NCBI RefSeq assembly: GCF_009730335.1
Contig: NZ_CP046315.1
Span: forward strand, 682,001-746,000
Origin: Schaalia odontolytica
Lineage (GTDB): Bacteria > Actinomycetota > Actinomycetes > Actinomycetales > Actinomycetaceae
DNA: 64,000 bases
Direction of reading: 5' to 3'
The notes under the pieces were generated by a model. That model did no database searches. It worked only from the letters and a program-made list of their open reading frames with translations, and was not told the origin of the DNA. Of the stretch, positions 37,476 through 53,873 are shown piece by piece. Positions within the stretch are counted from its first letter, which is position 1. The number at the start of each line of letters is the position of its first letter. Made by a program: the position numbers and the translations under genes.

Positions 37476-39713
37476 TCAGATCTTGGCGGCCTCGATCCAC
37501 TCCAGCGGGATGCGGCTGAAGTACAGGCCCTGCATCTCACGCTCCCACAGCAAGCCCAGAGCCCCGTCGGGGAGGATCGTCATGCACTGGTAGACGTAGT
37601 GGGCCGGGTTGAATGTGCGAGATGCGATCCACGTCCGCCCGCCGTCTTCGGACAGGCGCAGAACGCCGCGGCCGCGGTAGGGACGCATCTGCGAGGCATT
37701 CGCGAACACCACGCGCTCGGGGCAGTCCTCCGTCGGCCAGGGAACCGCGTTCGGCTGGCAGAAGATTTCGGTGATCTCCTCGGCGAAGAACACGTCGCTC
37801 CAGGTTTCGCCTCCGTCGGTGCTGACGGTCGCCGCGACCTTTCCGCTGGGGTGCTGGTTGCGCATGAGCATCAGGAGCGAACCGTCGGCGCGCTCGATGA
37901 GCGTGGCCTCGTGCGTCGCGGCCGCTTCGGTGTCGAGCGTGCGTGAGTCGATCTCGCGGCCCTCGAAGATGCGCCCGTCGTTGGGAGACTTGCCGCGCTT
38001 CCATGTCGTACCGCCGTCATCGGAGTAAACGACGGATGCGGAGAAGTGACGCTTGTGGTCCCCGTTGTAGTAGATCGGGATGACGAGGCGCCCGCTGCGC
38101 AGCTGCACGCCCGTGCCCGGGGAGGTCCCGCAGAAGGACATCCATTCTTCCTTCACGTCTTGGTTGAGGTTGAAGGGGCCGGACCAAGTCTCGCCGTCGT
38201 CGTCGGAGTAGATCATTTGAAGGAAGCAGGTCCGGGCCGTCAACAGTGTCTGGTGGGGATCGACGCCATCGGCGAGGAATACGTTGCCACCGGAGGATTC
38301 CTGTCCGCCTTCCGTGACGGTGACGTCGCCGCGCTCGGAGACCGTGAATGCAGTGGTGTTGCCGTCGGCGTCCGTGACGCTTCCATCCTGGTTCCACGTG
38401 TAGGTGGCACCGTTGGCGTCGTGCAGGATGTACCGGCCCCGTTCGTCGACGCCGAGGCCGGCCTCGGCGTTTGGCTGGCCGATGCCGCCTGGGAAGTGGT
38501 CGATGAGGATAACGAGGCGTCCGTTGCGGCGGTCCTGCACGACGCATGAGTCGATGACGGATGCACCCTTGGCGCCGTGACCGGGGTAGGTGAGGACTGT
38601 CTGGAGGTCGCCCCACGTGTGTCCTCCGTCGAACGAGCGGCGAACCGTGAAGTTGATCGAGTTGGGTGAGTCGTTCGCGATGGTCTCACGCTGGTCGGCG
38701 CCTGCGACAACGACTCCGGATTCCAGGGTGATCAGTGAGGGGATGCGGTAGCTGATCGAGTCGTGAAACCCGGCATCGAACAGGCATTGCGTGTCGACCG
38801 GAGCGATCGAGGAGAGCTTCTTGATCTGCGAATCGTTGAGGACCGACGAGTAGAGCGCCGCGTTACGGACCTCGCCGAAGAGGCGAGACCCGGAGGTGTC
38901 CTGACCGATGACGACCTCGTCGAGGGAATCGACGGCTGCGAAGAATGCCTGTCCGGGCAGGTGAGCCTCGAGATAGCCGTCCACGTAGATCTGTACTGCG
39001 CCGTGTCCAACGCGAACGACGACGTCGTGCCAGTGTCCCTGGTCCCAGTGTCCGTGGGCCGTAAATGTACGCCACTCGCCCCGTCGCCCGAGGACCTTGT
39101 ACTCGATGCCTTCTTCCGTCACGGACAGGTTGAGCTGCTCGGTGCCGCCACCACCCGCCGCGAGGATCGTGCCGTGCTGGCCCGGTCCGCGCACGCGGTA
39201 GCGGGCGAAGATCGTGCCCGCAGTGAGCTCAGAGAGTTCGGCGACGTCGTAATCCGACAGGCGAGCGGCGGCAAACTCGATGAGCGGAGTGGGGGCGGGC
39301 GAGAGTGCGAGGATCTCTGCGGGGGAGAGAACGCCGTCATGCTCTGTGAAGGATCGAATGTCGATGCCGGCTCCCGGCGTGAGTTCCAGAGTAGCCTCGG
39401 GGCCGCTTGCAGCGGGGGATAGGTCTGCGGTCGTAGAGAAGCACTGGTAGCCGTCGAGGAAGATCTTGGAGCCCGCGCTGGTGGCCGTGATCGCGAGAGA
39501 ATGCCAGGTTCCATCCGTGACGGAAGCGGTGTCTTCCATGTCCAGGGCGAAGGACATCGCGTTTGTTGATCCCTCCAGGAAGAGGGCGCTGGAGCGGATG
39601 AACAGGTGCCACCCTGTGTCGGCCGTGCTGTGGAGCTCGATCAATGCTCCATCGATGCGTGCTCGGAACTGTAAAGTCCAGGAGATTCCCGGGTGACCCG
39701 CGTCGATGCTCAT
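37476..39713 (-). CDS. Sialidase (GH33) with two N-terminal laminin-G-like domains and no signal peptide
   Basis: A 745-residue exo-sialidase that should release terminal sialic acid. Two concanavalin/laminin-G-like domains (about 1-145 and 150-290) precede the six-bladed propeller. The propeller opens with SYRIPSL (Arg-triad RIP motif), has the probable acid/base Asp348 in NDSPNSINFTVRRS, and shows five Asp boxes (SFDGGHTW, SDDDGETW, SDDGGTTW, STDGGETW, SEDGGRTW). ATG 39713 is 8 bases after AAAGG; GTG 39722 overlaps that site region. No signal peptide or anchor is visible from either start, so the enzyme looks cytoplasmic. It is transcribed divergently from nanT. Confidence 0.93.
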   Translation of the reverse strand: MSIDAGHPGISWTLQFRARIDGALIELHSTADTGWHLFIRSSALFLEGSTNAMSFALDMEDTASVTDGTWHSLAITATSAGSKIFLDGYQCFSTTADLSPAASGPEATLELTPGAGIDIRSFTEHDGVLSPAEILALSPAPTPLIEFAAARLSDYDVAELSELTAGTIFARYRVRGPGQHGTILAAGGGGTEQLNLSVTEEGIEYKVLGRRGEWRTFTAHGHWDQGHWHDVVVRVGHGAVQIYVDGYLEAHLPGQAFFAAVDSLDEVVIGQDTSGSRLFGEVRNAALYSSVLNDSQIKKLSSIAPVDTQCLFDAGFHDSISYRIPSLITLESGVVVAGADQRETIANDSPNSINFTVRRSFDGGHTWGDLQTVLTYPGHGAKGASVIDSCVVQDRRNGRLVILIDHFPGGIGQPNAEAGLGVDERGRYILHDANGATYTWNQDGSVTDADGNTTAFTVSERGDVTVTEGGQESSGGNVFLADGVDPHQTLLTARTCFLQMIYSDDDGETWSGPFNLNQDVKEEWMSFCGTSPGTGVQLRSGRLVIPIYYNGDHKRHFSASVVYSDDGGTTWKRGKSPNDGRIFEGREIDSRTLDTEAAATHEATLIERADGSLLMLMRNQHPSGKVAATVSTDGGETWSDVFFAEEITEIFCQPNAVPWPTEDCPERVVFANASQMRPYRGRGVLRLSEDGGRTWIASRTFNPAHYVYQCMTILPDGALGLLWEREMQGLYFSRIPLEWIEAAKI

Positions 39714-39793
39714 GCTTGACACCTTTCTGTTAGTTGCTGATTTCGCCTCGCATCATTGCGAAGCTGAGCGTGCGATCAGTCACAATGCGGAAG

Positions 39794-39804
39794 TTGTCAG
39801 ACAG
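39794..39804. promoter_or_regulatory. Predicted GntR/FadR-type operator at the sialidase promoter
   Basis: TTGTCAGACAG matches the TNGTNNNACNA pattern bound by FadR-subfamily GntR regulators except for its final base. It overlaps the -10 box and start site of the sialidase promoter and resembles the nanT operator 100 bases away. Confidence 0.55.
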
Positions 39805-39831
39805 ATTAGCACTGTGGTGTTTCGTTGGCAA
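39803..39831 (-). promoter_or_regulatory. Promoter of the sialidase gene
   Basis: On the reverse strand TTGCCA (39826-39831) and TAATCT (39803-39808) are 17 bases apart. The expected start site lies near 39796, inside the predicted operator, leaving a leader of about 80 bases. Confidence 0.65.
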
Positions 39832-39857
39832 TATAGAGATTTTGCCAATATTTCGTA

Positions 39858-39886
39858 TTGACTCCAGAATGAGAGAGAGCTAACAT
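39858..39886 (+). promoter_or_regulatory. Promoter of nanT
   Basis: TTGACT at 39858-39863 and TAACAT at 39881-39886 are exactly 17 bases apart, a strong match. Transcription should start near 39893, at the left edge of the palindrome 39891-39911. Confidence 0.75.
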
Positions 39887-39890
39887 TGCT

Positions 39891-39911
39891 GCAAGTTGTC
39901 TGACAACTTGC
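39891..39911. promoter_or_regulatory. Predicted GntR/FadR-type operator at the nanT start site
   Basis: A perfect 21-base palindrome with core TTGTCTGACAA (39896-39906), fully matching TNGTNNNACNA. It sits at the predicted nanT start site, where a bound repressor would block transcription. Confidence 0.7.
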
Positions 39912-39976
39912 TAGTTAGACATCTGGACTCACAGCCCCTCGTTATTCGACGATGAAATTTCAGGAAGGCACTCATC

Positions 39977-41452
39977 ATGAGTACGTCCCCCGCACAGGCG
40001 CTTACGAAAAAGCCCTGGTATCAATACCTGACCAAAGAAGATCGCAAGGCCTTCTTCGCCGCATGGATCGGCGTGCTGCTGGACGGCTACGACTTCGTTC
40101 TGATCTCCTTTGCGCTCCCCGCGATCAAGGAAGCGTTCAGTCTGACGCTGGTCCAGAGCGCATCCCTGATTTCGGCCGCCTTCATCAGCCGCTGGATCGG
40201 TGGCCTCGTGCTCGGAGCTATTGGCGATCGCTACGGACGTAAGCCTGCGATGGTCCTGTCGATCTTCATGTTCGCCTTCGGCTCTATCGCCTGCGCTCTC
40301 GCTCCTAACTTCTGGATTCTCTTCATCCTGCGCCTCGTCATCGGCTTTGCAATGGCCGGCGAATACTCGGCATCTGCTGCCTATGTCATCGAGTCGTGGC
40401 CCAAGCACATGCGCAACAAGGCGTCGGGTTTCCTGCTCTCCGGCTACGCCTTTGGTGTTATCGCCGCTGCTCAGGTCGACAAGTACTTCGTGACCTGGGT
40501 CGATTCGGTTCACCCCGGTTGGGGCTGGCGAGCCCTCTTCCTCACGGGCATCGTCCCGATCGTCGTCGCCATCTACATGCGGCGCACCCTGCCCGAGGCT
40601 GCGGACTGGAGTGAGGCCAAAGAGAAGGGTGATGGTGAGAAGAACGATATGCTCGCCGTGCTCTTCGGTGGGCAGCGCAAGATCCTCAACTATGCCGTCG
40701 TTGTGATTGCCTTCGTCGGTCTAATGGTGATCTTCACTCAGCAGGTGGGTGGCATTGTTGCGGTCAGCCTGATCGGTGTCGTGTGCGCGATCGTCTTCAT
40801 CTACCTGATCATCCAGTTCGACTCGAATCGCTGGATCATCGGCATCGCGATCATGCTGACGATCTTCGCTTCCTTCATGTACACCTGGCCGATCCAGGGC
40901 CTTCTGCCGACCTACCTGCACGGTGTTGGTATGGACCAGAAGGTCGTCGCGAACGTCGTGTCCTTCGCCGGCCTCGGCAACGCTGTGGGCTACATCATCG
41001 CCGGATTCGCGGGCGACAAGTTCGGCATGCGTCGCTGGTACGCCATTTCCCTGCTGCTGTCGCAGATCATCGTCTTCCCGCTGTTCACGCAGGATGGGAA
41101 GTACGTTGCTCTCGTTGCCGGTCTGCTCTTCTTCCAGCAGATGTTCGGCCAGGGTGTTTCGGGCCTGCTGCCCAAGTGGGTGTCCTCCTACTTCCCGGTC
41201 GACAAGCGCGCTGCCGGCCTCGGCTTCTGCTACAACGTCGGTGCCCTCGGCGGCGCGGTCGGCCCCGTCCTGGGGGCTGCGATCGCCGATCAGCTCGGCC
41301 TCGGTATGGCCCTCGCGATTCTGTCCTTCGGATTCGCTGCGGTCGTTATGGTCTCCATCGGCGCGAACATTCCGCGTCTGCTGCAGAGGATGGTGGGACC
41401 GGAGTATGTTCGTCCTGAAGATGGAAACGACGAAATCATCGCAGAAGGATGA
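39977..41452 (+). CDS. nanT: Sialic acid transporter NanT (MFS)
   Basis: A 491-residue major facilitator protein closely resembling E. coli NanT, the proton symporter for N-acetylneuraminate. Shared stretches include LLDGYDFVLI near helix 1, SLISAAFISRWIGGLVLGAIGDRYGRK (the MFS loop 2-3 motif), AGEYSASAAYVIESWPKHMRNKASGFL and LPKWVSSYFPVDKRAAGLGF. Two extra helices in the middle (about 235-280) match the 14-helix layout of NanT. Regulation through the upstream palindrome is likely. The stop is followed within a few bases by the next gene, so they form an operon opposite the sialidase. Confidence 0.93.
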   Translation: MSTSPAQALTKKPWYQYLTKEDRKAFFAAWIGVLLDGYDFVLISFALPAIKEAFSLTLVQSASLISAAFISRWIGGLVLGAIGDRYGRKPAMVLSIFMFAFGSIACALAPNFWILFILRLVIGFAMAGEYSASAAYVIESWPKHMRNKASGFLLSGYAFGVIAAAQVDKYFVTWVDSVHPGWGWRALFLTGIVPIVVAIYMRRTLPEAADWSEAKEKGDGEKNDMLAVLFGGQRKILNYAVVVIAFVGLMVIFTQQVGGIVAVSLIGVVCAIVFIYLIIQFDSNRWIIGIAIMLTIFASFMYTWPIQGLLPTYLHGVGMDQKVVANVVSFAGLGNAVGYIIAGFAGDKFGMRRWYAISLLLSQIIVFPLFTQDGKYVALVAGLLFFQQMFGQGVSGLLPKWVSSYFPVDKRAAGLGFCYNVGALGGAVGPVLGAAIADQLGLGMALAILSFGFAAVVMVSIGANIPRLLQRMVGPEYVRPEDGNDEIIAEG

Positions 41453-41457
41453 CCACC

Positions 41458-42360
41458 ATGACACTTCCTTTCGTTATCGGCGCGTACGCGTCGCATCCGG
41501 CACCGGAGCTGGAGGCAGACTACTACCGACTCCTCGCGGATCAGCCGTGGGTGAGTGGCGTCGAGATCCCCTACCCGGGGCAGCTCGCCACCCAGGGCGA
41601 CGTGCTGGCTGGCCACCTGGCCGCCCACTGGGACTTCAACACGATCACCGCGATTCCCGGCACCATGCAGAACGTGTGGAAGAACGAGAACTTCGGCCTG
41701 GCCTCGCCCGACGAGGCCGGACGCGCCGCCGCTCTTGACTTCACCCGCGCGCTGCGCGATGACCTCGCCGCCCTGTGCGAGCGGGCAGGTCGCCAGCTGG
41801 TTGCCCGCGTGCAGCTGCACTCGGCGCCCACGCGCCTGGCGCAGGTGGACGCCTTCAAGCGTTCGCTCGCCGAGGTGGCCACCTGGGACTGGTGCGGGGC
41901 CACGCTCGTCATTGAGCACTGCGACAAGTACATCCCCGAGCAGAACCCCGAAAAGGGCTTCCTCTCCCTCGAATCCGAGATCGACATCGTCTCCGAGGCG
42001 GGCATCGGCATCCACCTCAACTGGGGCCGCTCCGCCGTGGAGGGCCGCAGTGCGGACACCGCCTACGAGCACGTGCTCGAGGCTGGCAAGCGCGGCGTCC
42101 TGGACGGCATCATCTTCTCGGGCGCAGGCCCGGAGGAAACCCAGTACGGCTACTCCTGGATCGACGGCCACCTGCCCGCGCAGGCCGACGAGCCGACCTC
42201 GCTCATGGACGAGGCCGAGATCGCTCGCTGTGCACGGGCCGCCGTCGAGGGCGGAGCCAACTACCTCGGCGCGAAGGTCTGCGTCCCCAAGGATGCGTCC
42301 CTCGAGCAGCGCCTGGCCATGCTGACCAACATCTACCGGGCCTGCGGCATCGGCGAGTAA
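41458..42360 (+). CDS. TIM-barrel protein of unknown function in the nan operon (DUF4862-like)
   Basis: A 300-residue protein that I cannot assign to a reaction. It resembles proteins labelled DUF4862 and the xylose-isomerase-like barrels used by sugar isomerases and epimerases. Possible metal or acid residues occur in VIEHCDKYIPEQNP (Glu) and IGIHLNWGRSAVEGR (His, Asn). ATG 41458 is favoured because AGAAGG at 41443-41448 is well spaced for it; ATG 41449 overlaps the nanT stop but has no spacing. No signal peptide or membrane helix is seen. Coupling to nanT implies a role in using imported sialic acid or a related sugar. Confidence 0.75.
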   Translation: MTLPFVIGAYASHPAPELEADYYRLLADQPWVSGVEIPYPGQLATQGDVLAGHLAAHWDFNTITAIPGTMQNVWKNENFGLASPDEAGRAAALDFTRALRDDLAALCERAGRQLVARVQLHSAPTRLAQVDAFKRSLAEVATWDWCGATLVIEHCDKYIPEQNPEKGFLSLESEIDIVSEAGIGIHLNWGRSAVEGRSADTAYEHVLEAGKRGVLDGIIFSGAGPEETQYGYSWIDGHLPAQADEPTSLMDEAEIARCARAAVEGGANYLGAKVCVPKDASLEQRLAMLTNIYRACGIGE

Positions 42361-42471: not shown

Positions 42472-43557
42472 TCACGGTGTGCGCCTGGCGACCGATGAAC
42501 GCCACACCGGGCGCGTCGGGATCGTCGCGATCGGGGTGCCGTCCGGGGCCTCCTCGTCGATGGAGGCCTGCGGGTGAATGTCGGTCATGGGGGAGCGCCC
42601 CTCGATCACGTTGATGATCGAGGAGACGGCGGCCTCGGTCATGTCCTTGAGGGGCCACTCGACCGTCGTGAGGCCGAGAGCGGAGGCGCTGCGGTGGTCC
42701 TGGTTGCCGAAGCCGAGGATCGACAGGTCGCCGGGCACGGACAGATCCAGGTCTGCGGTGGCCTGGAAGACGCCGGGGGCCTGCGAGTCGTCGGCCAGGG
42801 CGATGAGCGAGATTGACGGGTCTTCGTCGAGGAGGCGCAGCGCGGCCTGGTAGGCCGTGGTGGGTTCCCAGTCGGGCAGCGAGTACATCGTGAACCTCGT
42901 GCCAAACATCCGCGCGATCGGGTTCTGGCGCGCGTGATTCGTGTTCGGGCCAGCCAAGAACACCGCCCGCCCGCTGCCCGTACCGGTCGACGGATCCACG
43001 AGTGCGCAGTCAGAGAGAACGTCGCGCACGCCGGCACCCTCGTCGATGCGAATGAGGGAGGATTCCGATCCGGTCGGGTTGGCCTCGATCATCGACATGG
43101 CGACGACGGGGATGCCGAGGTTGGCGAGCAGGCGCGAGGTGAAGGCCTCAGCCGACGTGGTCTCGCGGATGATGCCGGCCAGCTGGGTGTCGCCCAGGAC
43201 CCCGCGGATCACCTCCGCGTCGGAGGCGCCGTCGCCGGACTGGAAGAGGGGGAGGAGGAGGTAGCCTCGTCGCTGGATATCGATCATCGCGGTCGTGAGG
43301 ACCGTGTGGACGACGGGCACGAAGGGGTCGTCCGGAAGCTCGGCCATCAGAAGGGCGATGAGGTGGGACTTGCCGCGTCGCAGTGAGCGGGCGGCCGCGT
43401 TGGGGATGTAGTTGAGTTCGCGTGCGGCCTGCTTGACGCGATCGATGGTGGCGGGCGCGATCTTGACGTCTCGGCCTCGTCCGTTGAGGACGAGCGAGAC
43501 GGTCGACGGTGCGACGCCTGCCGCGCGGGCGACGTCGGCCCGGGTTGCGCGCTCCAT
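42472..43557 (-). CDS. LacI-family transcriptional regulator
   Basis: A 361-residue repressor-type regulator. The N-terminal helix-turn-helix ATRADVARAAGVAPSTVSLVLNGRG and hinge region NAAARSLRRGKSHLIALL are typical of LacI/GalR proteins, followed by a periplasmic-binding-protein-like effector domain. ATG 43557 is preceded by GGGAG on the reverse strand. It diverges from the beta-galactosidase gene, and the intergenic region carries the predicted operator, so it probably controls that gene, itself and the transporter. The effector is presumably a galactose-containing saccharide, by inference from context. Confidence 0.92.
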   Translation of the reverse strand: MERATRADVARAAGVAPSTVSLVLNGRGRDVKIAPATIDRVKQAARELNYIPNAAARSLRRGKSHLIALLMAELPDDPFVPVVHTVLTTAMIDIQRRGYLLLPLFQSGDGASDAEVIRGVLGDTQLAGIIRETTSAEAFTSRLLANLGIPVVAMSMIEANPTGSESSLIRIDEGAGVRDVLSDCALVDPSTGTGSGRAVFLAGPNTNHARQNPIARMFGTRFTMYSLPDWEPTTAYQAALRLLDEDPSISLIALADDSQAPGVFQATADLDLSVPGDLSILGFGNQDHRSASALGLTTVEWPLKDMTEAAVSSIINVIEGRSPMTDIHPQASIDEEAPDGTPIATIPTRPVWRSSVARRTP

Positions 43558-43577: not shown

Positions 43578-43608
43578 TTGCGTTTCGTTAAAACACAAGA
43601 ACTATAAC
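43578..43608 (+). promoter_or_regulatory. Probable promoter of the beta-galactosidase gene
   Basis: TTGCGT at 43578-43583 is followed after 17 bases by ACTATA (43601-43606) or after 19 by TATAAC (43603-43608). The -10 region overlaps the predicted operator, the arrangement expected for repression. Confidence 0.5.
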
Positions 43609-43615
43609 GTGTTAG
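43602..43615. promoter_or_regulatory. Predicted LacI-type operator in front of the beta-galactosidase gene
   Basis: CTATAACGTGTTAG matches 12 of 14 bases of the palindrome CTAACACGTGTTAG found complete at 50089. The central CG is characteristic of LacI-family sites. It overlaps the promoter -10 box. Confidence 0.65.
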
Positions 43616-43668
43616 TCTTATCTCTGACGATCGGAGTTTCGACGACGACATCCGAAAGGCACACAGAC

Positions 43669-46494
43669 GTGATATCGATACTACCTTCCTATGCTCCCGG
43701 CGCGGGCACGCTTGTGCCTCCGCGTGCGCACCTCGCTGACGACTGCGGGGTTCTCACCCTCGATGGCATGTGGAGCTTCGCCTATCACAGCACCGACCCC
43801 GCGCCCTTCGTCAACGTCGAGCAGCCCTGGGACGAGCCCGCTCCCGTCGGCGACGCGTCCGAGATTGACGTGCCCAGCCACTGGGTCCTGCGCGGTGAGG
43901 GTGCCTGGGGCCACCCCGCCTATACCAACGTCGACTTCCCCTTCCCGGTCGACCCTCCGTTCCCGCCCGACGACAACCCCGTCGGCGACTACCGCCGCAC
44001 CTTCGAACTCCCCGCCGACTGGCAGGGCGGCCACATTCGCCTGCGTTTTGACGGCGTTGAAAGTCAGGCCACCGTGTGGGTGAACGGCACGTGGATCGGC
44101 ATGGCTCGCGGTTCGCGCCTCGCCCACGAGTTCGACGTGACCGAGGCCGTGCACTCCGGCGTCAATACGATCACCGTGCGCGTGCACCAGTTCAGCCCCG
44201 GTTCCTACCTCGAGGATCAGGATCAGTGGTGGCTGCCCGGTATCTTCCGCTCGGTGAGTCTGCGTCGCCTCGCTCCCGGAGCGATCGAAGACCTGTGGGT
44301 CGACACTGACTACGAGGCCGGGGTGGGTTATGTGACCATCGAAGCCCGGGTGCTCGGTGCCCAGGAGGCACATCTGTCCGGGCATCTCAGCATCGATGGC
44401 CTCTGGTCGTTCGCCTGCTCGCTCGAACGCGGCGAGGATGGCCGCTACCGCAGCGGACGCATCGAAGTGGGCAGCGTGCGCCCGTGGAGCGCGCAGGACC
44501 CTGCCCTCTACGAGGCGCGCGTCAGCGTCCAGGGCTCGGAACGCCTCGACGCGGGTGAGCGGTGCCTGCGCATCGGCTTCCGTCGCGTGTACATCGAGGG
44601 CGGCGTGCTCAAGGCCAACGGTGAGCCCCTGACCCTCAACGGCGTCAACCGCCACGAGGTGCGCGCCGCCGAGGGGCGCGTGTTTGACGAGGCCTGGGCG
44701 CGCGAGGATCTCGCCCTCATGAAGTCCATGGGAATCAACGCGATCCGTACCTCCCACTACCCGCCCCACCCCCGCGTGCTCGACCTGGCGGATGAGATCG
44801 GCCTGTGGGTGATGCTCGAAGGCGACATTGAAACGCATGGTTTCGAGGGCGTGGGGGAGTGGATCGATAATCCCTCCGACGACCCGTGCTGGGCCGATGC
44901 CTACATGGATCGCACGGTCCGCGCGTTCGAGCGCGACAAGAACCATCCCTCGATCATGAGCTGGAGCCTCGGCAACGAGTCTGGCACCGGCGCGAACCTG
45001 GTCGCCTGCGCGCGCTGGGTCCATGAGCGCACGGGTTCCCGGGCGATCGTTCACTACGAGGGCGACCATGCCCTCGAATACACGGACATCTACTCGCGCA
45101 TGTACCCGACCCTGGAGGAGGTTGCCGCCGTCCTCGACGAGAGCGATCCCCACGCCGAGGTTGCCGTGCCCACGCACGTCGCTGCGCGGGTTGACGATGC
45201 GGCGCGCGAGCGCATCCGCCGCGCTCCCTACATCATGTGCGAATACCTGCACGCGATGGGGACAGGCCCCGGAAACGCCGCCGCCTACGCCGCGCAGATG
45301 GGCCACCGCCGCCATGCCGGCGGCTTCGTGTGGGAATGGCGCGATCACGCGCTCTGGCGCACCCTGCCCGACGGGCGACGAGCCCTGTCCTACGGCGGCG
45401 ACTTCGGTGAAGAGGTCCACGACGGCAGCTTCGTGTGCGACGGCCTGATCGATGCCCTCTCGCGCCCCTACGCCGGCACCTGGTCGTGGGTTCAGGCGAT
45501 GGCTCCGGATGCTCCGGCACTCGCGAAGGCTATTGAGTCCTCGCGCGGACACGGCCCGGATGAGGCCCGACTGCGCGCGCTCCTCGGCGCCCCCGTCGCG
45601 GTCGTCCGCACGGACGATGACGTGGCAGCCCCCTACGCGCTCGATGCGCGTGGGCGCCTCGCGCGGATCGGCACCATGCCCGTGAGCGTCGACCTCAGCG
45701 TCTTTAGGGCCCCCACCGACAACGACCGCGGGCGCGGCCCGGTCGACTACTGGGGGATTGACGAGGACGACCTCGGCCCCCTCGGGGTCGGGCGCGGCGA
45801 GCATGGAACCTCGCACGCAGCCCGCTGGGAGCAGGCTCGCCTGCACCTGCTGCGCCGACGTCTCGTCTCCATCGAGGAGGAAGGCACCTGCCAGCGCGTC
45901 ACTGAACGCTGGGCCCCGCCTGTCGCGCAGTTTGGCGTCACCCTCACCTGGGAATATCGTCCTGTGCTGCTGGGGGAGACCCCGGCCCTGTCGGTGTCTG
46001 TCCGCGTCGCGCCCTACGGGGCCTGGCCCGAGCGCGTCCCGCGCCTCGGCGTGCGCATCGAAATGCCCGGATCTCAGTGGGAAGCCTCGTGGCTCGGCGA
46101 TACTCTCATCGGATACTCCGACATGCGGGTGAGTGGCGCTCGCGGATATGGGCACGCTCCCGTGCGCGAGCTCTGGGACGTGAGCGTGTGCCCTCAGGAA
46201 GGCGGGCAGCGCCTCGACCTCGAAGCCCTCCGTCTGCACGGTGAGGCGGGCGACGTCCTCGTCGTGCCGACATCGTCCCTGGGCTGGAGTGCCTCGCCGT
46301 GGAGCGAGCGTGAATTGGCCGAGGCCTCGCACTGGGAGGACCTGCCGGACAGTGAGCGGACGTTCCTGTGGCTGGACGCCTTCCAGGATGGGATTGGCAC
46401 ACGTTCGTGCGGGCCTGACTCTCGGCCCGAGTTCGCCGGTTGTATGCGCGATGCTGACCTGACATTCGTAATTGCCCAGGTTGGGGGTGATTAA
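43669..46494 (+). CDS. lacZ: Beta-galactosidase, LacZ-type (GH2)
   Basis: Cytoplasmic family 2 glycosidase of 941 residues. The acid/base is Glu437 in SLGNESGTG and the nucleophile Glu525 in IMCEYLHAMGTGPG, both as in LacZ. Domain order is jelly roll, immunoglobulin-like, barrel, then a C-terminal galactose-mutarotase-like domain. GTG 43669 (MISILPSYAPGAG) is 9 bases after GAAAGG; an in-frame TTG at 43609 lies inside the predicted operator and is rejected. No signal peptide. It probably splits imported galactosides taken up by the ABC system downstream. Confidence 0.94.
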   Translation: MISILPSYAPGAGTLVPPRAHLADDCGVLTLDGMWSFAYHSTDPAPFVNVEQPWDEPAPVGDASEIDVPSHWVLRGEGAWGHPAYTNVDFPFPVDPPFPPDDNPVGDYRRTFELPADWQGGHIRLRFDGVESQATVWVNGTWIGMARGSRLAHEFDVTEAVHSGVNTITVRVHQFSPGSYLEDQDQWWLPGIFRSVSLRRLAPGAIEDLWVDTDYEAGVGYVTIEARVLGAQEAHLSGHLSIDGLWSFACSLERGEDGRYRSGRIEVGSVRPWSAQDPALYEARVSVQGSERLDAGERCLRIGFRRVYIEGGVLKANGEPLTLNGVNRHEVRAAEGRVFDEAWAREDLALMKSMGINAIRTSHYPPHPRVLDLADEIGLWVMLEGDIETHGFEGVGEWIDNPSDDPCWADAYMDRTVRAFERDKNHPSIMSWSLGNESGTGANLVACARWVHERTGSRAIVHYEGDHALEYTDIYSRMYPTLEEVAAVLDESDPHAEVAVPTHVAARVDDAARERIRRAPYIMCEYLHAMGTGPGNAAAYAAQMGHRRHAGGFVWEWRDHALWRTLPDGRRALSYGGDFGEEVHDGSFVCDGLIDALSRPYAGTWSWVQAMAPDAPALAKAIESSRGHGPDEARLRALLGAPVAVVRTDDDVAAPYALDARGRLARIGTMPVSVDLSVFRAPTDNDRGRGPVDYWGIDEDDLGPLGVGRGEHGTSHAARWEQARLHLLRRRLVSIEEEGTCQRVTERWAPPVAQFGVTLTWEYRPVLLGETPALSVSVRVAPYGAWPERVPRLGVRIEMPGSQWEASWLGDTLIGYSDMRVSGARGYGHAPVRELWDVSVCPQEGGQRLDLEALRLHGEAGDVLVVPTSSLGWSASPWSERELAEASHWEDLPDSERTFLWLDAFQDGIGTRSCGPDSRPEFAGCMRDADLTFVIAQVGGD

Positions 46495-46572: not shown

Positions 46573-46603
46573 TATGATTCATGTATCAACTAACACGAGA
46601 TAG
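46573..46603 (+). promoter_or_regulatory. Promoter -10 box and LacI-type operator of the ABC transporter operon
   Basis: TATGAT at 46573-46578 is a good -10 box, though the -35 position reads only ATGCGA. At 46590-46603 CTAACACGAGATAG matches 12 of 14 bases of the CTAACACGTGTTAG palindrome, just after the expected start site. The binding-protein start codon is 56 bases further on. Confidence 0.6.
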
Positions 46604-46658
46604 TTAGTGACTCGATCCCATCGATCGACCAGCAAAAACGGACCAATGGAGGTTTCGC

Positions 46659-48071
46659 ATGTTGAAGAAGAAGATGGCCGCAGGCGTTGTCGCCCTCGCC
46701 ATGTTCAGCACCCTCGGCCTGGCCGCCTGTAACCCTGGTGGCTCCAGCTCCGACAGCTCGAGCGGCGGTTCGGCCGCCGCCGGTTCCATCCCTCAGCCCG
46801 ACGTCGCCTGCGACATCCCCGAGGGCAACCTTGACGACTCGAAGATCGACACCTCGAAGGTCGAAGGCGAGATCACGTTCCAGACCCAGGGTCTGCAGAA
46901 CGACTTCGGCGACTTCTTCAAGGCCAAGATCAAGGAATTCGAGGACGCCAACCCCGGCGTGAAGATCAACTGGACCGACCAGGGCGGCGGCGCCGAGTTC
47001 GACCAGACCGTGACCGCTCAGGCCTCGAACTGCAAGATGGCGGACGTCATCAACGTTCCCTCCTCCACCATCCTCGCCCTGTCCAAGTCCAACCTCCTCA
47101 TGGACTACGACGTCAAGGCTCCCGGCATCGGCGACAAGTTCGTGAAGTCCATTTGGGACTCCACCGCCCTGGGCGCCAACGACCACCACACGGCTCTGCC
47201 CTGGTACTTCGGCCCCTACATCACCACCTACAACAAGGAGGTCTTCAAGCGCGCTGGTCTCGATGAGAACATGCCGCCCAAGACCATGGATGAGCTGTTC
47301 GAGGATGCCGCCAAGGTCGGTGCCGACGGGCAGGGTGACTACGGCATCTATGGCTCGCCCGAGTGGTACATGATCGCTCAGCTGCACGGCATGGGCGTCA
47401 ACCTGCTCAACGCCGACAAGACCGCCTTCAACTTCGCCGACAACGAGGCCGCGATCAACTACGTCACCAAGCTCTCCGAGCTCTACGCCTCCGGCGCCAT
47501 CCCGAAGGACTCCCTGACCGGCGAGCCCGACCCGGGCAAGGCCTACACCGACGGCAACCTCGCCTTCGGTACGCCCAACGCCTCGTTCCTCAAGTCCGTC
47601 AAGAAGAACAATGAGACGGTCTACCAGAACACCGGCGTCGGCCCGTTCCCGACCAACCCCGGCATCAAGCCCGTCTTCGAGGGTCAGTACATCGGTGTCT
47701 CCGTCACCACGCAGAACGCCCCGCTGGCGATGAAGTTCGCCGAGTGGATCACCAACGCTGAGAACGAGTACGCCTGGACGCACGACGGCGGCGCCATCAT
47801 CTTCCCGGCTGCCACCGACGCCCTCGACAAGCTCGTTGCCAACCCGCCGGAGATCGCCGACGACCCGGTCTTCAAGGCCGCCTACGAGGAAGCCGCTAAG
47901 GCCGCCAAGGACGCCGAGGCCTACACCGACGTCTTCTACGCGACCGGCGCCGTGAAGGACGCCCTCATCGAGAACGTCAACAAGGCCATCCGCGGCGAGG
48001 TCGATCCCAAGACCGCCCTCAAGACCGCTCAGGATCAGATGAACGAGAAGCTCAAGGCTCTCGGAGACTGA
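46659..48071 (+). CDS. Carbohydrate ABC transporter solute-binding lipoprotein
   Basis: A 470-residue extracellular binding protein of the CUT1 type. The signal sequence ends in the lipobox LGLAAC (Cys24 lipidation site), followed by a Ser/Gly-rich linker. The mature part has the family features ITFQTQGLQNDFGDFFKAKIKEFE near its start and TALPWYFGPYITTYNKEVFKRAGL. The ligand is not evident from sequence; regulation with the beta-galactosidase and the secreted protein suggests an oligosaccharide from host glycans. A strong intergenic stem after the stop probably raises its level over the permeases. Confidence 0.93.
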   Translation: MLKKKMAAGVVALAMFSTLGLAACNPGGSSSDSSSGGSAAAGSIPQPDVACDIPEGNLDDSKIDTSKVEGEITFQTQGLQNDFGDFFKAKIKEFEDANPGVKINWTDQGGGAEFDQTVTAQASNCKMADVINVPSSTILALSKSNLLMDYDVKAPGIGDKFVKSIWDSTALGANDHHTALPWYFGPYITTYNKEVFKRAGLDENMPPKTMDELFEDAAKVGADGQGDYGIYGSPEWYMIAQLHGMGVNLLNADKTAFNFADNEAAINYVTKLSELYASGAIPKDSLTGEPDPGKAYTDGNLAFGTPNASFLKSVKKNNETVYQNTGVGPFPTNPGIKPVFEGQYIGVSVTTQNAPLAMKFAEWITNAENEYAWTHDGGAIIFPAATDALDKLVANPPEIADDPVFKAAYEEAAKAAKDAEAYTDVFYATGAVKDALIENVNKAIRGEVDPKTALKTAQDQMNEKLKALGD

Positions 48072-48079
48072 TTGATCGC

Positions 48080-48110
48080 TCGGGGGCCGAGGCATGGCCT
48101 CGGCCCCCGA
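48080..48110 (+). other. Intergenic stem-loop between binding protein and permease genes
   Basis: A perfect 14 bp stem, TCGGGGGCCGAGGC at 48080-48093 with its complement at 48097-48110, and a 3-base loop. No T run follows, and both permease genes have no promoter of their own, so it is read as a stability element or partial terminator that favours binding-protein mRNA. Confidence 0.7.
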
Positions 48111-48177
48111 TGCATTCCTCGCCCAGCGTCGGGCCGCCGGCTCACGACCCCGCGCATCCCTGAAAAAGGACTTTGGT

Positions 48178-49089
48178 ATGCCGATACGTAAGAGTGCGCA
48201 GACGCGCTCCCTCAATGGCGCCGCCCGATTCCGCCCGGGCTGGGTTCCCTGGCTGTGGGTGACCCTCCCGGTCCTCGCGGTCATCTCCTTCTACATCTAC
48301 CCCTTCATCACGACCGTCTACGTGTCGTTCACGAAGACGAAGCCGATGGGACGCATCGGTCGCTTCGTTGGTATTGACAACTTCACCGCGGTACTGTCAG
48401 ATCCCGAGTTCTGGCAGTCGCTGACAAACTCCCTCATCTACGCGGTCTGCGTCGTCCCGCTGATGGTGCTCCTGCCCCTGCTGCTGGCCCTCCTCGTCAA
48501 GTCGCACGTGCCCGGCATCGGCTTCTTCCGCGCCCTCTACTACCTGCCGGCCATCTCCTCGTTGGTCGTCATTTCGCTCGCGTGGCGCTACCTCCTGGAC
48601 CAGCGCGGACCCATCAACAACATGTTGGCCTCCTGGGGCCTGGACCCCGTGCCATTCCTGTCGAATCAGTGGATGATTCTCTTCTGCGCCATGATCATCA
48701 CCCTGTGGCAGGGCCTGCCCTACTACATGATCCTCTACTTGTCGGCCCTCGCGAACGTCGACAAGTCGCTGTACGAAGCCGCCGAACTCGACGGCGCCGG
48801 ACCGATCCGACGCTTCCTGACGGTCACTGTTCCGGGTGTCAAGGTCATGATGTTCCTCGTCGCCACCCTGACGACGATCGGCTGCCTGAAGATCTTCACC
48901 GAGGTCTACCTGCTGGGTGGCTCCGCCTCGCCCACGAAGACCCTCACGATGTACATCCGAGACCGAATCGTCGACCCGACCTTCGGATCTCTGGGACAGG
49001 GCGACGCCGCCTCGGTGTGCCTGTTCCTCATCACCTTCGGCTTCATCATTGCTTCGCAGAGCCTGCAGAGGAAGGCTGAAGACTCATGA
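48178..49089 (+). CDS. Carbohydrate ABC transporter permease, first subunit
   Basis: A 303-residue inner-membrane permease (MalF-like) with six helices. The conserved cytoplasmic loop for ATPase contact is YEAAELDGAGPIRRFLTVTVPG. ATG 48178 follows AAAAGGA with 7-base spacing; the frame is open back to an ATG at 48094, but that codon lies in the loop of the intergenic hairpin and its extension is not conserved. It overlaps the second permease by ATGA. Confidence 0.93.
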   Translation: MPIRKSAQTRSLNGAARFRPGWVPWLWVTLPVLAVISFYIYPFITTVYVSFTKTKPMGRIGRFVGIDNFTAVLSDPEFWQSLTNSLIYAVCVVPLMVLLPLLLALLVKSHVPGIGFFRALYYLPAISSLVVISLAWRYLLDQRGPINNMLASWGLDPVPFLSNQWMILFCAMIITLWQGLPYYMILYLSALANVDKSLYEAAELDGAGPIRRFLTVTVPGVKVMMFLVATLTTIGCLKIFTEVYLLGGSASPTKTLTMYIRDRIVDPTFGSLGQGDAASVCLFLITFGFIIASQSLQRKAEDS

Positions 49090-50015
49090 GTACCGCAACT
49101 TCGAGCGCCGCGACCTTCGGTGAGCGCTTCGCCCAGTGGCGCAAGGAACGCCGACTCGAGCGCCAGGGGCGCAACGTTGCCTCGCGTCAGATGCGCGGCG
49201 GCGCCCTCATCGCCCGCTACGCCCTCCTCGTCGTCGTCGCCCTCATCCTGGTCGGCCCCCTCGTCCTACCCCTCATGGCCGCCTTCAAGGCCCCCGGCGA
49301 ATCCGTCTTCGGTCAGGGCGCGACCATGCTGCCACAGCAGTGGTCGCTGGACTCCTTCTACGTCCTCTTCGAGCGTACCAACATCCTGCTGTCCATCAAG
49401 AACTCCGCGATCCTGGCGACCCTGACGGTCTCCTCGAACGTCATCCTCTCGTGCATCGGCGGCTACATGCTCTCGAGGCGCGGGTGGACCGGCCGCAACG
49501 TCATGTACTTCGTCGTCCTGTCCGCCATGATCTTCCCCTTCGAGTCGATCATGCTGTCGCTGTTCAAGATGATGGTGCAGCTGGACCTGTACAACACGCT
49601 TCCCGGCGTGTGGATGGTTGCCATGATCGGCCCCTTCCAGATCCTCATGATGCGCGCCGCCTTTATGGGCATCCCCGACGAGATCGAGGATGCGGCTCTC
49701 ATCGACGGAGCGGGGGAGCTGCGTCGCTTCTGGTCCATCTTCCTGCCCCAGGTGCGTGGCACGCTGACGGTCGTTGGTCTGACATCCTTCATCGGCGCGT
49801 GGTCCGACTTCATCTTCCCGCTGCTCATGCTGCCCGATCCGAACAAGCAGACCCTGATGTTGACGCTGACGGCCATCCAGAACTCGCCCCAGGGTGTCAC
49901 CTACCAGCTCGTGCTGGCGGGCGCCGTCGTGGCGATGATCCCCGTCGTGCTGGTCTTCGCCTTCAGCCAGAAGTTCTTCTTCCGCGGCATCGAAGATGGC
50001 GGTCTGAAGTTCTGA
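49086..50015 (+). CDS. Carbohydrate ABC transporter permease, second subunit
   Basis: A 309-residue MalG-like permease with six helices and a basic cytoplasmic N-terminus of about 40 residues. The ATPase-contact loop is EIEDAALIDGAGELRRFWSIFLPQ. It starts inside the stop of the first permease. No ATPase gene follows, so the system must share an MsiK-type ATPase encoded elsewhere, as CUT1 systems of actinobacteria usually do. A strong terminator ends the operon. Confidence 0.93.
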   Translation: MSTATSSAATFGERFAQWRKERRLERQGRNVASRQMRGGALIARYALLVVVALILVGPLVLPLMAAFKAPGESVFGQGATMLPQQWSLDSFYVLFERTNILLSIKNSAILATLTVSSNVILSCIGGYMLSRRGWTGRNVMYFVVLSAMIFPFESIMLSLFKMMVQLDLYNTLPGVWMVAMIGPFQILMMRAAFMGIPDEIEDAALIDGAGELRRFWSIFLPQVRGTLTVVGLTSFIGAWSDFIFPLLMLPDPNKQTLMLTLTAIQNSPQGVTYQLVLAGAVVAMIPVVLVFAFSQKFFFRGIEDGGLKF

Positions 50016-50021
50016 TCCTCA

Positions 50022-50061
50022 TCCCCGCGGGTGCCCCTCGCACCCGCGGGGATCTTCTCTA
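50022..50061 (+). terminator. Rho-independent terminator of the ABC transporter operon
   Basis: A perfect 14 bp stem, ATCCCCGCGGGTGC at 50022-50035 with its complement at 50041-50054, loop CCCTC, followed by CTTCTCT. Confidence 0.88.
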
Positions 50062-50088
50062 CCTAAAAGGAGGTTATTTCACAAATAA

Positions 50089-50102
50089 CTAACACGTGTT
50101 AG
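50089..50102. promoter_or_regulatory. Perfect LacI-type palindrome upstream of the secreted glycosidase-like gene
   Basis: CTAACACGTGTTAG is fully symmetric with a central CG. It lies 72 bases before the ATG, between a weak TTCACA (50078-50083) and TAGGTA (50100-50105) that could be promoter boxes. Confidence 0.7.
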
Positions 50103-50174
50103 GTATTGTGGATCTGTGGCCATCTAACGGCCGATCCCAGCCACCACCCCCATACTGACGAAGGAGTTAAACTC

Positions 50175-53100
50175 ATGGGGACTAGACCCATCATCGGTGC
50201 ACTCGGAGCCCCGATTCTTGCGGCCACCATGCTTGGCCTCGCACCCGCCGCGGCCGTCGCCGCCACCGAAACCCCGTATCACCCGACCGTCCTGTGGGCG
50301 ACCTCCGAAGAGAAGGTCGGCGAAAGCGCACCCAACGGTACGATCGCAGCCCTCGTCGACGACGACACGACCCGTACCGACGCGACCAAGACCTTCTGGA
50401 CCACCAAGTGGAAGGGAGGGCTCGATACCTACCCCCACGCCCTCGCCGTCCAGAACCCCACGCCCGGCACCCAGGTGTGCGGCCTCGGCCTGACCCCGCG
50501 CCCCACCTACGATTCGACCCTGGGCAACGACCAGTTCCCCGGCGAATACCGCGTCTTCGCCTTCGACGAGGACCCCGGTAACCCGGCCGCCGAAGCCTCC
50601 TTCGCCGACTGGAAGACCAACGTCGCTGCGGGCACGTGGGAAGGCGGCACCGAGGTCAAGCACGGAAGTGACCTTCAGTTCGGGAACAAGGAACAGTACG
50701 TCACCTTCCCAGCGACCACGAAGCGAGTCTTCGCTCTGACCGGCCTGCGCTCGCTAGCCCCCGGCAAGAAGGACATGGCGCTGTCGGACATCAAGCTCCT
50801 GCCCTGCGACGCCGACGGTAACGCCATCACCTCCTACGGCAACGAGGACACCGGCGGTAACCACGAAGCAGCACGACCCGTCGTACCTCACCCCGATGCC
50901 CCCGAGCAGGGATCGGGCGCATCCGACCTCGTCGTTGACTTCGTCATCGACCAGCTGCCGTACGGCGAGCCCGGTAAACCCGTTGACTTTGCCCCCGGCA
51001 CCCACACCTACACGGCCACCGGCTACTACCACGCGAAGACCGTCTCGGCCCGTATCCGTGCGGTCGACGGTGCCACCGTCACCATCAACGGCGTGACCCC
51101 TGACGCCGATGGACGCGTGTCCAACCTTGACCTCACCACGGGCCTGAACGTCATCACCGCCACCGTGGCCAAGGACGGCAAGGAAGCCACCTACGTCGTT
51201 AACATCACCAAGGTTGACACCGACTTCCGCGGCAACGTGATGATCCCCGCGACCGCTCAGGCGAATGGCGGAACCGAGGCCGACAACGCGGCCCTCACCG
51301 ACCTCGACCCGACAACGACGTGGACCTCCGATCCGCTCGTTCGTGCGCATGAATGGTCGAGCAGCGTCACCGGCATCGAGCTGCACCTGGGCGAGGCCCG
51401 CTACGTGCACCGCATCAACGGATGGGGCACCCCGATCCTGCCCGCGGGCGTCCAGGGATGGCACGGCGGCAACTCCGTGGCCATCGCGGTCCAGGAGGCC
51501 GACGGCGGCGAATGGAAGACCATCGTCACCCACGGCTCGCTCACGCGCGACGCGCGCGGCCTGTGGTACTGGGACTTCAACAGCTATCACCTCGCCAAGA
51601 ACATCCGCATCTGGATGAACGACGAGACCGAGCCCCAGACCCCGCAGAACATCGCCACCGCGGTGACCTTCAACGACGTCGAGGTGTGGGGCCTGCCCGC
51701 CGGCAAGACCCCCGTGGCTCCCGTTGTCGACAACTCCATGTACGAGCGCTACTCCGGCTTCAATCCCGGTGACGGCAAGTGGGGCGTCAACCGTGCCCAG
51801 GCCCTCGCGCTGCAGTACGGCGTCATGATGCCCGCGTGGGTTCCCTCCGAGGGCTACGGCCGTGGCGGCTTCGACGCCAACGAGCGCGACCTCACGGGTG
51901 GCGCGTTCCCGATGTTCTACGACCTGCCCATGTTCAACACCGCCATGATGGAGTCCCTGGGTAAGGGTGCGCCGTGGGCCCTCGCCAAGGCCCCCACCGG
52001 CAAGAACAGCATGTGCAACGCTGGCGAGCCGCGCGACTTCATGAACGAATACATGAAGCCCTACGCCTCCACGCTCGTCGACATCCAGTACGGCGATGAG
52101 GGCGGCTTCAACCGCGGCGAGTCCGAGTGCTTCAAGAACTGGTTCTCCTGGTCCAAGGAGAACATCCCCGGCGCCGTCGTTCATGCGAACTCTTGGGACG
52201 ACCCCTCCTGGTACCGCGACGCCAATCTGAGCTACTACGTCGAGAATGCCAAGCCCGACCTGCTCAGCTGGGACAAGTACTACTGGGGCGCCAACGGCGG
52301 CCCGGCCCCGAGCAACGTCGTCATGAACCTGCTGGGCACCAACACCTGGAAGAAGCAGCGCGAATACGGCCTCAAGGGCCTCACCGGTGACGGCTCCAGC
52401 CCGATCCTGTACGGCCAGTACCTGGACTACAACTGGGATGCGAACGTGTCCGCCTCTGAGAAGTCGATCGTTCCCTCCCTGGGCCTGGCGACCGGCCAGA
52501 AGTGGTTCGGTCTGTTCCGCATGGAGTACAACGGCTACGACCGCTCCTCGATCATCGACCACGACGGCGCGCCCACGCGTTCGTTCTACGAGTTCTCCAA
52601 CATCTTCGGCAATGTCACCTACATCGGTAACTACACGAAGGCCATGAACTCCACGTTCGTCGCCTACAAGCCCGGCCAGTACGCGGCTCGTGGCGCGATC
52701 CCCTCGCTGAGCGGCTACAAGTACGGTGACTTCGCCTCCGGCGACGAGGCCAAGGCCGCCAACGAGTCCGTCGGCCTGGTTGACATGTCGGTGACCAACG
52801 TCGGCTCCGTCAACGACGGCCTGCCCGGCGACGTCGTCGTCGGCTACTTCGAGCAGCTGAAGGGCCTGGAGACCGCCAAGTCCGCCGAGATCTTCGGCGA
52901 CTCCACGACGGCCCCCAAGGGCTTCATGGTCGTCAACGCCCTGACGGGCCAGACCCGCTACCCGTCCTACCTCCTCGACCCGCGAACCGACAACGGTTCG
53001 CTGGCCGAGACCGCTCAGGACATCACCCTGACCGTCAAGAAGCCGGCTGCGAACGCACACCTGATGCTCGTCAACCCGGCCGACAAGACGACGCAGGAAG

Positions 53101-53873
53101 TCGAACTCGGCGAGGGCGAGACCTCGCAGGTCGTGCTCCATGCTGTTGGTGGCGGCGACTCGCGCTTCCTGTACTGGGTGACGATCGAGGATCCGACCCC
53201 CACCCCGGATCCGACCCCCACCCCGGACCCGCAGCCCACCCCGGACCCGACACCGGCTCCTGAGCCGACCGTGGACCCGACACCGGCTCCGACCCCGGAT
53301 CCTGCGCCCCAGCCTCGCACGGGCCAGTGGAAGTCCGGCTACTTCGGCTGGTGGTACAGCTACTCTGACGGCACCTACGCGGCCAACGAGACCCTCGTCA
53401 TCGATGGGCAGACCTACCGCTTCGATGCGCGTGGCTACATGAAGACGGGCTGGGTCTACGACGGTGGACACTGGTACTACCACGGTTCCAGTGGCGCCCA
53501 GCAGACCGGCTGGATCATGGACCGCGGTAACTGGTACTACCTCGACCCGTCGAACGGTGTGATGGCGACCGGCTGGGCCCAGATCGATGGATCATGGTTC
53601 TATATGTCGCCCTCCGGAGCGATGCGAACCGGATGGGTGAAGGACGGCGGTGCCTGGTACTACCTGTCGCCCTCCGGCTCGATGGCCACGGGCTGGCAGC
53701 ACCTGGATGGCTCCTGGTACCACCTGGGCGCCAACGGTGCGATGACCACTGGCTGGCTCAAGGATGGACCCTCGTGGTTCTACCTGCACGGCAATGGCTC
53801 GATGGCCACCGGTTGGGAACTGATCGGATGGACCTGGTACCACTTCGCGCCCTCGGGCGCGTGGATTGAGTAG
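50175..53873 (+). CDS. Secreted cell-surface protein: discoidin-like domain, unassigned barrel hydrolase, choline-binding-type repeats
   Basis: A 1232-residue exported protein. A signal peptide (1-28, ending AAAVAA) is followed by an N-terminal beta domain (30-235), a cadherin-like beta sandwich (about 252-345), a discoidin/F5-8C-like carbohydrate-binding domain (about 354-505), a probable TIM-barrel hydrolase (about 521-828), a beta domain to about 1005, a Pro-Thr linker, and about seven 20-residue Trp/Tyr/Gly repeats of choline/cell-wall-binding type. Within the barrel IQYGDEGGF (Asp641, Glu642) and LLSWDKYYWG (Asp700) are candidate catalytic segments. I do not recognise the glycosidase family. 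ATG 50175 has GAAGGAG upstream. The upstream palindrome links it to the LacI-type regulator, transporter and beta-galactosidase. Confidence 0.8.
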   Translation: MGTRPIIGALGAPILAATMLGLAPAAAVAATETPYHPTVLWATSEEKVGESAPNGTIAALVDDDTTRTDATKTFWTTKWKGGLDTYPHALAVQNPTPGTQVCGLGLTPRPTYDSTLGNDQFPGEYRVFAFDEDPGNPAAEASFADWKTNVAAGTWEGGTEVKHGSDLQFGNKEQYVTFPATTKRVFALTGLRSLAPGKKDMALSDIKLLPCDADGNAITSYGNEDTGGNHEAARPVVPHPDAPEQGSGASDLVVDFVIDQLPYGEPGKPVDFAPGTHTYTATGYYHAKTVSARIRAVDGATVTINGVTPDADGRVSNLDLTTGLNVITATVAKDGKEATYVVNITKVDTDFRGNVMIPATAQANGGTEADNAALTDLDPTTTWTSDPLVRAHEWSSSVTGIELHLGEARYVHRINGWGTPILPAGVQGWHGGNSVAIAVQEADGGEWKTIVTHGSLTRDARGLWYWDFNSYHLAKNIRIWMNDETEPQTPQNIATAVTFNDVEVWGLPAGKTPVAPVVDNSMYERYSGFNPGDGKWGVNRAQALALQYGVMMPAWVPSEGYGRGGFDANERDLTGGAFPMFYDLPMFNTAMMESLGKGAPWALAKAPTGKNSMCNAGEPRDFMNEYMKPYASTLVDIQYGDEGGFNRGESECFKNWFSWSKENIPGAVVHANSWDDPSWYRDANLSYYVENAKPDLLSWDKYYWGANGGPAPSNVVMNLLGTNTWKKQREYGLKGLTGDGSSPILYGQYLDYNWDANVSASEKSIVPSLGLATGQKWFGLFRMEYNGYDRSSIIDHDGAPTRSFYEFSNIFGNVTYIGNYTKAMNSTFVAYKPGQYAARGAIPSLSGYKYGDFASGDEAKAANESVGLVDMSVTNVGSVNDGLPGDVVVGYFEQLKGLETAKSAEIFGDSTTAPKGFMVVNALTGQTRYPSYLLDPRTDNGSLAETAQDITLTVKKPAANAHLMLVNPADKTTQEVELGEGETSQVVLHAVGGGDSRFLYWVTIEDPTPTPDPTPTPDPQPTPDPTPAPEPTVDPTPAPTPDPAPQPRTGQWKSGYFGWWYSYSDGTYAANETLVIDGQTYRFDARGYMKTGWVYDGGHWYYHGSSGAQQTGWIMDRGNWYYLDPSNGVMATGWAQIDGSWFYMSPSGAMRTGWVKDGGAWYYLSPSGSMATGWQHLDGSWYHLGANGAMTTGWLKDGPSWFYLHGNGSMATGWELIGWTWYHFAPSGAWIE
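53190..53315. repeat. 18-base tandem repeats encoding the Pro-Thr linker
   Basis: Imperfect copies of GATCCGACCCCCACCCCG encode a DPTPTP-type linker of about 42 residues. They are in frame and separate the catalytic half from the binding repeats. Copy number could vary between strains. Confidence 0.85.
53317..53870. repeat. Tandem coding repeats of the cell-wall/choline-binding type
   Basis: A first longer unit is followed by about seven units of 20-21 codons, each with the pattern W-Y/F-Y ... G-M-TGW (for example WYYLSPSGSMATGW). These resemble the repeats of choline-binding proteins of streptococci. What they bind in this organism is unknown. Confidence 0.85.

Follow-up and report, generated by a model that had tools for sequence, protein, structure and literature searches.

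Gut bacteria are known to release fucosylated blocks from host glycans by means of enzymes of the families GH98, GH20 and GH136. Here we analyse a gene of the mouth bacterium Schaalia odontolytica that encodes a large cell-surface protein with a candidate catalytic barrel. It lies at positions 50175-53873 (+) of a 64,000-nucleotide stretch of contig NZ_CP046315.1 (positions 682,001 to 746,000), hereafter called the window, in which all positions below are numbered. We consider it fairly probable that this protein is a wall-tethered hydrolase that frees an oligosaccharide of fucose and galactose, probably from host mucin-type glycans, and that this oligosaccharide is imported and split by a GH29 enzyme and LacZ. 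The proposal is built on the architecture of the protein, its fold prediction, its invariant acids, the operators common to the locus and the conservation of the operon, from which we infer the catalysis, the bond that is cut and the substrate.

Several described systems resemble this locus in part. In Roseburia inulinivorans, an enzyme acting outside the cell frees Lewis a/b blocks, which are imported by an ATP-binding cassette (ABC) transporter and met inside by GH29 and GH95 enzymes (PMC7335108). The GH136 enzyme of this species, RiLea/b136, is thus like the scheme proposed here in the outside cut, the ABC uptake of a fucosylated block and the defucosylation inside. However, GH136 catalytic domains are beta-helices (PMC7335108), and the triosephosphate isomerase (TIM) barrel predicted in our protein rules out its membership of this family. 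The GH98 endo-beta-galactosidases (RgGH98, RiGH98, Sp3/Sp4GH98) combine a secreted modular barrel enzyme with a fucosidase, a fucose pathway and oligosaccharide uptake. RgGH98 consists of a galactose-binding-like module, a barrel and a beta-sandwich, and its operon, which mucin induces, also encodes a GH95 fucosidase (PMC8730463); RiGH98 frees blood-group oligomers, and the fucose pathway is co-induced (PMC7335108). Yet neither sequence nor profile comparison matches our protein to GH98, and no GH98 was found when sought in ten genomes that bear the gene. The GH20 hexosaminidases and lacto-N-biosidase have an Asp-Glu pair ending strand 4, as our protein does with its invariant Asp641-Glu642, but they have no profile similarity to it and are absent among the fold matches listed. 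The O-glycanases (POGases) of Actinomycetota, which belong to GH101 (PMC11861894), come from the same bacterial group and are also multi-module proteins with galactose-binding-like modules, whereas our protein has no match to the GH101 Pfam profile at E≤10. Finally, the GH42 beta-galactosidases share with it a TIM barrel followed by a C-terminal beta domain and provide the best of the fold matches listed by VIA-align (Z 19.0, rmsd 3.7 over 344 residues), but at 11% identity, without a Pfam match and with other modules; unlike them, our protein is surface-anchored and the Glu of strand 7 is not where it would be expected.

The frame at 50175-53873 is that of a real gene, as it is intact in 12 of 98 relative genomes and is under purifying selection, with ratios of nonsynonymous to synonymous substitution rates (dN/dS) of 0.11-0.37 for the barrel and C-terminal domain when compared with six orthologues. 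It is a single open frame for 1,232 amino acids with an ATG start, preceded by a GGAG ribosome-binding-like motif. The protein begins with a signal-peptide-like segment, recognised from sequence and hydropathy (MGTRPIIGALGAPILAATMLGLAPAAAVAA, residues 1-30, 50175..50264). This is followed by a galactose-binding-like module (50262..50850; phmmer E 6.6e-6 to the chitobiase module 2kd7 and 3.8e-3 to the sialidase module 2v72), a cadherin-like domain (residues 271-346, 50985..51212; PF12733, E 3.9e-9) and a second, discoidin-like module (residues 348-507, 51216..51695), which is conserved in relatives, though database searches gave no significant sequence match to it. The candidate catalytic TIM barrel (residues 527-826 or thereabouts, 51753..52652) and the C-terminal beta domain packed with it (about 827-1002, 52653..53180) come next, both delimited from an AlphaFold model, and then a proline/threonine-rich linker (53181..53330) and choline-binding, that is cell-wall-binding, repeats (53331..53861), all on the + strand. 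The repeats match PF19127 and PF01473 (E 4e-33) and place the protein among the choline-binding proteins. An earlier reading of this DNA from its letters only (the sequence-only reading) had proposed the signal peptide, the discoidin-like module and the wall-binding repeats, and each of them is borne out; it had also located the motifs YGDEGGF and LLSWDKYYWG, found here at residues 639-645 and 696-705, with Glu642 and Asp700 as it had placed them.

Surface attachment is kept among relatives by differing means: choline-binding repeats in the window, and LPxTG-type sortase-like motifs with hydrophobic C-terminal tails in L047, L048, L049 and L050. The galactose-binding-like module likewise varies in position, being N-terminal here, C-terminal in L048 and L049, and present at both ends in L050. 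In L026 (7496-11041), the protein ends without choline-binding repeats, and its final ~70 residues resemble a frame-shifted reading.

The fold was predicted from an alignment of 16 sequences (our protein and 15 relatives, with identity down to 39%). The resulting AlphaFold model, with a predicted local distance difference test score (pLDDT) of 85.7 and a predicted template modelling score (pTM) of 0.90, is an eight-stranded TIM barrel whose strands occupy model positions 46-48, 71-75, 94-98, 127-132, 161-167, 189-193, 238-243 and 270-273 (protein numbering is higher by 507). A model made with 12 close sequences only was poor (pLDDT 48) and was superseded once distant relatives were added. In fold searches, almost all of the matches listed were glycoside hydrolases: below GH42, VIA-align gave GH164, GH2 beta-glucuronidases, GH29 and others, with the alignments to GH42 and GH164 running on through the C-terminal beta domain, and Foldseek gave GH35, GH66, GH51 and GH5. 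GH98, GH20 and GH101 were not among the best 50 matches listed, which excludes none of them. The sequence-only reading had suspected a barrel hydrolase in residues 521-828 and suggested structure prediction as a check; the TIM barrel obtained and its glycoside hydrolase matches agree with it. We read the predicted barrel as a distant clan GH-A-like domain, nearest to GH42 but not a member of that family.

Sequence searches did not place the barrel in any family. The region has no Pfam match at E≤10 and no NCBIfam match; compared with the PDB by sequence it gave none, and a profile search built on the first alignment gave two chance-level matches (E above 1), whereas the deeper alignment yielded none. 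One of the 16 members matched PF00728 (GH20) weakly (E 8e-4, 19.3 bits, where the cut-off is 22.3); we rejected GH20 membership on this ground because the 15 other members lack the match. The idea that this is an unclassified surface hydrolase with no family match thus holds against Pfam, NCBIfam, PDB sequences and fold comparisons, and the barrel likely represents a new family, judged by its absence from Pfam, NCBIfam and PDB sequences, a comparison that leaves CAZy profiles outside. A literature search found no paper on the protein or its relatives.

The strand ends of the predicted barrel carry acids that are invariant in the 16 sequences: Asp641-Glu642 of the YGDE motif at the end of strand 4 (52095..52100), Asp700 of SWD at the end of strand 6 (52272..52274), Asp751 in the segment Gln748-Tyr-Leu-Asp751 at the end of strand 7 (52416..52427), where Gln748 is invariant too, and Glu784 of FRME at the end of strand 8 (52524..52526), all on the + strand. 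The proposed acid/base lies in the first of these. The assignment of Glu642 as a catalytic acid is well supported: it is invariant and, in the model, takes the strand-4 end position known from clan GH-A and from the GH42 acid/base. Which residue partners it is uncertain, since Asp700, Asp751 and Glu784 are three equal candidates by invariance. The catalytic pair of the sequence-only reading, Glu642 and Asp700, therefore needs revising: the first residue stands, but Asp700, on strand 6, cannot be singled out as sole partner because Asp751 and Glu784 are just as invariant. In the model, strand 7 carries Gln748 and Asp751 and no Glu. A hand alignment would pair the NE motif of GH42 with Asp641-Glu642 and its nucleophile Glu with Gln748, so that this invariant Gln seems to stand where GH-A enzymes usually have their nucleophile.

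The gene belongs to a sugar locus. Upstream of it in the window lie a LacI-family regulator gene (42472..43557, -; PF00356, E 4.8e-14), divergent from a gene for a LacZ-type GH2 beta-galactosidase (43609..46494, +; PF02836, E 3.3e-72), and the ABC transporter genes, all on the + strand: a solute-binding protein (SBP; 46659..48071; PF01547, E 1.9e-32), to which comparison with solved SBPs assigned no ligand, permease A (48094..49089), an open reading frame orthologous to the L023 permease that matches PF00528, and permease B (49086..50015), an open reading frame with orthologues in the same position. A 14-bp perfect hairpin after permease B (50021..50053, +) is a probable terminator. Operator-like palindromes precede lacZ (ACTATAACGTGTTAGT, 43601..43616, +, two mismatches to the core ACTAACACGTGTTAGT), the ABC genes (ACTAACACGAGATAGT, 46589..46604, +, conserved in relatives) and our gene (50084..50107, +), the last being a near-perfect palindrome of 24 bp, centred on CG, that is also there in other Schaalia-type loci. 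Because the listed start of lacZ sits inside its operator, the true start is probably the GTG near 43669.

Allowing up to three mismatches, the core ACTAACACGTGTTAGT occurs at three sites in the 64 kb (43601, 46589 and 50088), against an expectation of 0.04, and three sites were reached in none of 100 shuffles; this count is somewhat self-favouring, since the consensus was read off the same three sites, and matching places in orthologous loci are a better check. The operator indeed recurs before the SBP gene and our gene in L001, L002, L003 and L007, before the SBP gene with a weaker copy at our gene in L004, before the SBP gene only in L005 and L026, before our gene, the SBP gene and the LacI gene in L025, at all three places in L052, and as weaker copies in L050. 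We suppose that the divergent LacI protein would bind these sites. The sugar regulon of the sequence-only reading is thereby substantiated, our gene being tied to lacZ and the ABC genes by common operator-like sites.

The operon is conserved in relatives with additions that bear on the substrate. In Schaalia georgiae (L052; L004 represents this locus in a second record), the order is lacZ, SBP, two permeases, GH29 and our gene, and L026 (genome G016) matches it, while in L005 GH29 and our gene lie within one long open frame. The Actinobaculum locus (L006) runs SBP, permeases, GH29, our gene and galactokinase. L023 has LacI, then SBP, permeases, GH29, our gene and an aldolase, with fucose permease, kinase and isomerase genes adjoining; L047, L049 and L050 resemble it, with GH29 in the operon or adjoining, L047 having fucose kinase and aldolase genes beside the operon and L050 isomerase, kinase, aldolase and permease genes upstream. 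A fucose isomerase is encoded in 15 of the 18 Actinomycetaceae genomes with an intact copy of our gene. The window's genome has GH29 genes elsewhere and a fucose isomerase. Several of the operon GH29 proteins clearly begin without a signal peptide, and defucosylation is therefore probably intracellular. Together, LacZ and GH29 point to an imported oligosaccharide bearing alpha-fucose and beta-galactose, and the neighbourhood points to fucosylated galactosides as the substrate. Of the role on host or neighbouring-cell surfaces put forward by the sequence-only reading, these neighbour genes favour the host side; nothing was found for neighbouring bacteria.

Some observations count against this interpretation. 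The operon of the window's clade has no GH29, which was lost there; L048 and L024 are without any operon genes nearby; no fucose isomerase match was found in Actinobaculum (G1031), G1087 and G1149; and the association of fucose isomerase with our gene is confounded by phylogeny.

In the scheme that we favour, the substrate cut by the wall-tethered TIM barrel would be a fucosylated galactoside that the galactose-binding-like modules of the protein hold in place; a host glycan of mucin or blood-group/Lewis type is the most likely one. The freed oligosaccharide, with its alpha-fucose and beta-galactose, would enter the cell through the ABC transporter encoded in the same regulon of LacI type and be split inside by LacZ and the GH29 alpha-L-fucosidase, which is encoded in the operon in most relatives, and the released sugars would enter fucose and galactose catabolism. 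The cut possibly falls after galactose, in a GH98-like manner, or after N-acetylglucosamine (GlcNAc) or N-acetylgalactosamine (GalNAc), in a biosidase-like manner, possibly substrate-assisted via Asp641-Glu642. That LacZ has been retained speaks slightly for a product whose beta-galactosyl bond is intact.

How would the cut be made? An enzyme working like GH98, that is, an inverting endo-beta-galactosidase freeing blood-group-type oligosaccharides with a Fuc-Gal core, is the best of the alternatives, though we hold it to be unlikely. RgGH98 does the same job from the same kind of locus (PMC8730463), RiGH98 offers a second precedent (PMC7335108), and several acids of the barrel (Asp751, Glu784) could serve as base. 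However, none of the 16 members matches PF08306, profile comparison with the GH98-like proteins L094 and L095, both actinobacterial, stayed at noise level, and LacZ in the regulon suggests that the beta-galactosyl bond is still in the product. Somewhat less likely still, a barrel that has lost its strand-7 nucleophile (Glu to Gln748) might use Asp641-Glu642 and the N-acetyl group of the substrate instead, cut after GlcNAc or GalNAc and free intact H- or Lewis-type fucosylated trisaccharides.

We find it improbable that the protein is a divergent GH42-type exo-beta-galactosidase, a retaining clan GH-A enzyme clipping terminal galactose outside the cell. Beyond the fold match, aligning the profile globally with that of 14 GH42 sequences gave a score of 22.9, whereas 60 column shuffles did not exceed 12.8 and seven other families reached 9.6 at most. 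Profile comparisons with GH2, GH20, GH29 and GH98 stayed at noise level; SWDxY- and HDGxPxRxFxE-type local motifs are in common in the second half. But the signal is confined to that half, the first half of the barrel aligning no better than shuffles, and a shuffle also reached the score of one local comparison within the second. Moreover, none of the 16 members matches PF02449 at E≤10, the GH42 nucleophile lands on Gln748 in the hand alignment, and a free monosaccharide would need no oligosaccharide-type importer plus cytosolic LacZ and GH29.

A lectin-like adhesin, in which the barrel would be a dead hydrolase that holds glycans, appears a little more doubtful again. The several binding modules, the apparent replacement of the canonical nucleophile by Gln748 (hand alignment) and the double role of Actinomycetota O-glycanases as adhesins (PMC11861894) would suit it; the acids at four strand ends, invariant over 16 sequences down to 39% identity, the operators shared with uptake and breakdown genes and the purifying selection do not. 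Lastly, that the substrate is a plant fucosylated glycan such as xyloglucan side chains is very improbable. GH29 and LacZ would suit Fuc-Gal side chains too, but the operons, where not every neighbouring open reading frame is annotated, showed no recognisable alpha-xylosidase or glucanase, and a sialidase-like gene and a sialate transporter directly upstream give a host-glycan context. This sialidase-like protein (37479-39722, -) has BNR repeats, and the sialate:H+ symporter (39977-41452) scores above the curated NCBIfam cut-off; both fit foraging on host mucin-type glycans. With a DUF4862 protein, they make up a host-glycan foraging block (37479-42360) upstream of the LacI/lacZ operon.

Relatives of the barrel were found in 19 of 213 genomes of the family, one of which (L045/L051) holds a decayed remnant, and in two genomes from another family of the same class; 396 further genomes of the phylum gave no match beyond the window's own genome. 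They are known from actinobacteria only, the contig scan of other phyla reaching just close relatives, so that distant ones were not properly sought there; plasmid and viral collections gave no relative. Named hosts include Schaalia georgiae, Pauljensenia hongkongensis and Actinobaculum massiliense. The remnant, at 9254-9748 of L051 (genome G1109), spans 165 residues and is without the strand-4 GDE, the strand-7 Asp and intact flanking domains. L001 and L002, from records titled Xylanimonas cellulosilytica 352_XCEL and Sanguibacter keddieii 250_SKED, are 96-97% identical to and syntenic with the Schaalia window, and these assemblies look misnamed. Elsewhere in the window, a GH3-type glycoside hydrolase gene (8215-11166) lies between the genes for RNA polymerase beta-prime and elongation factor G, and its C-terminal domain precedes its N-terminal domain in the sequence.

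The apparent exchange of the nucleophile for Gln makes the mechanism of this protein a directly testable question, and if the substrate-assisted use of Asp641-Glu642 were true, it would mean a new family with a mechanism unusual for a clan GH-A-like fold. If the hydrolase role proposed here is correct, the protein would provide a new tool enzyme for glycan analysis, with a defined substrate prediction (Fuc plus Gal, in an importable product). A separate barrel family of the Actinomycetaceae would then extend the convergent release of fucosylated blocks to a poorly studied group.

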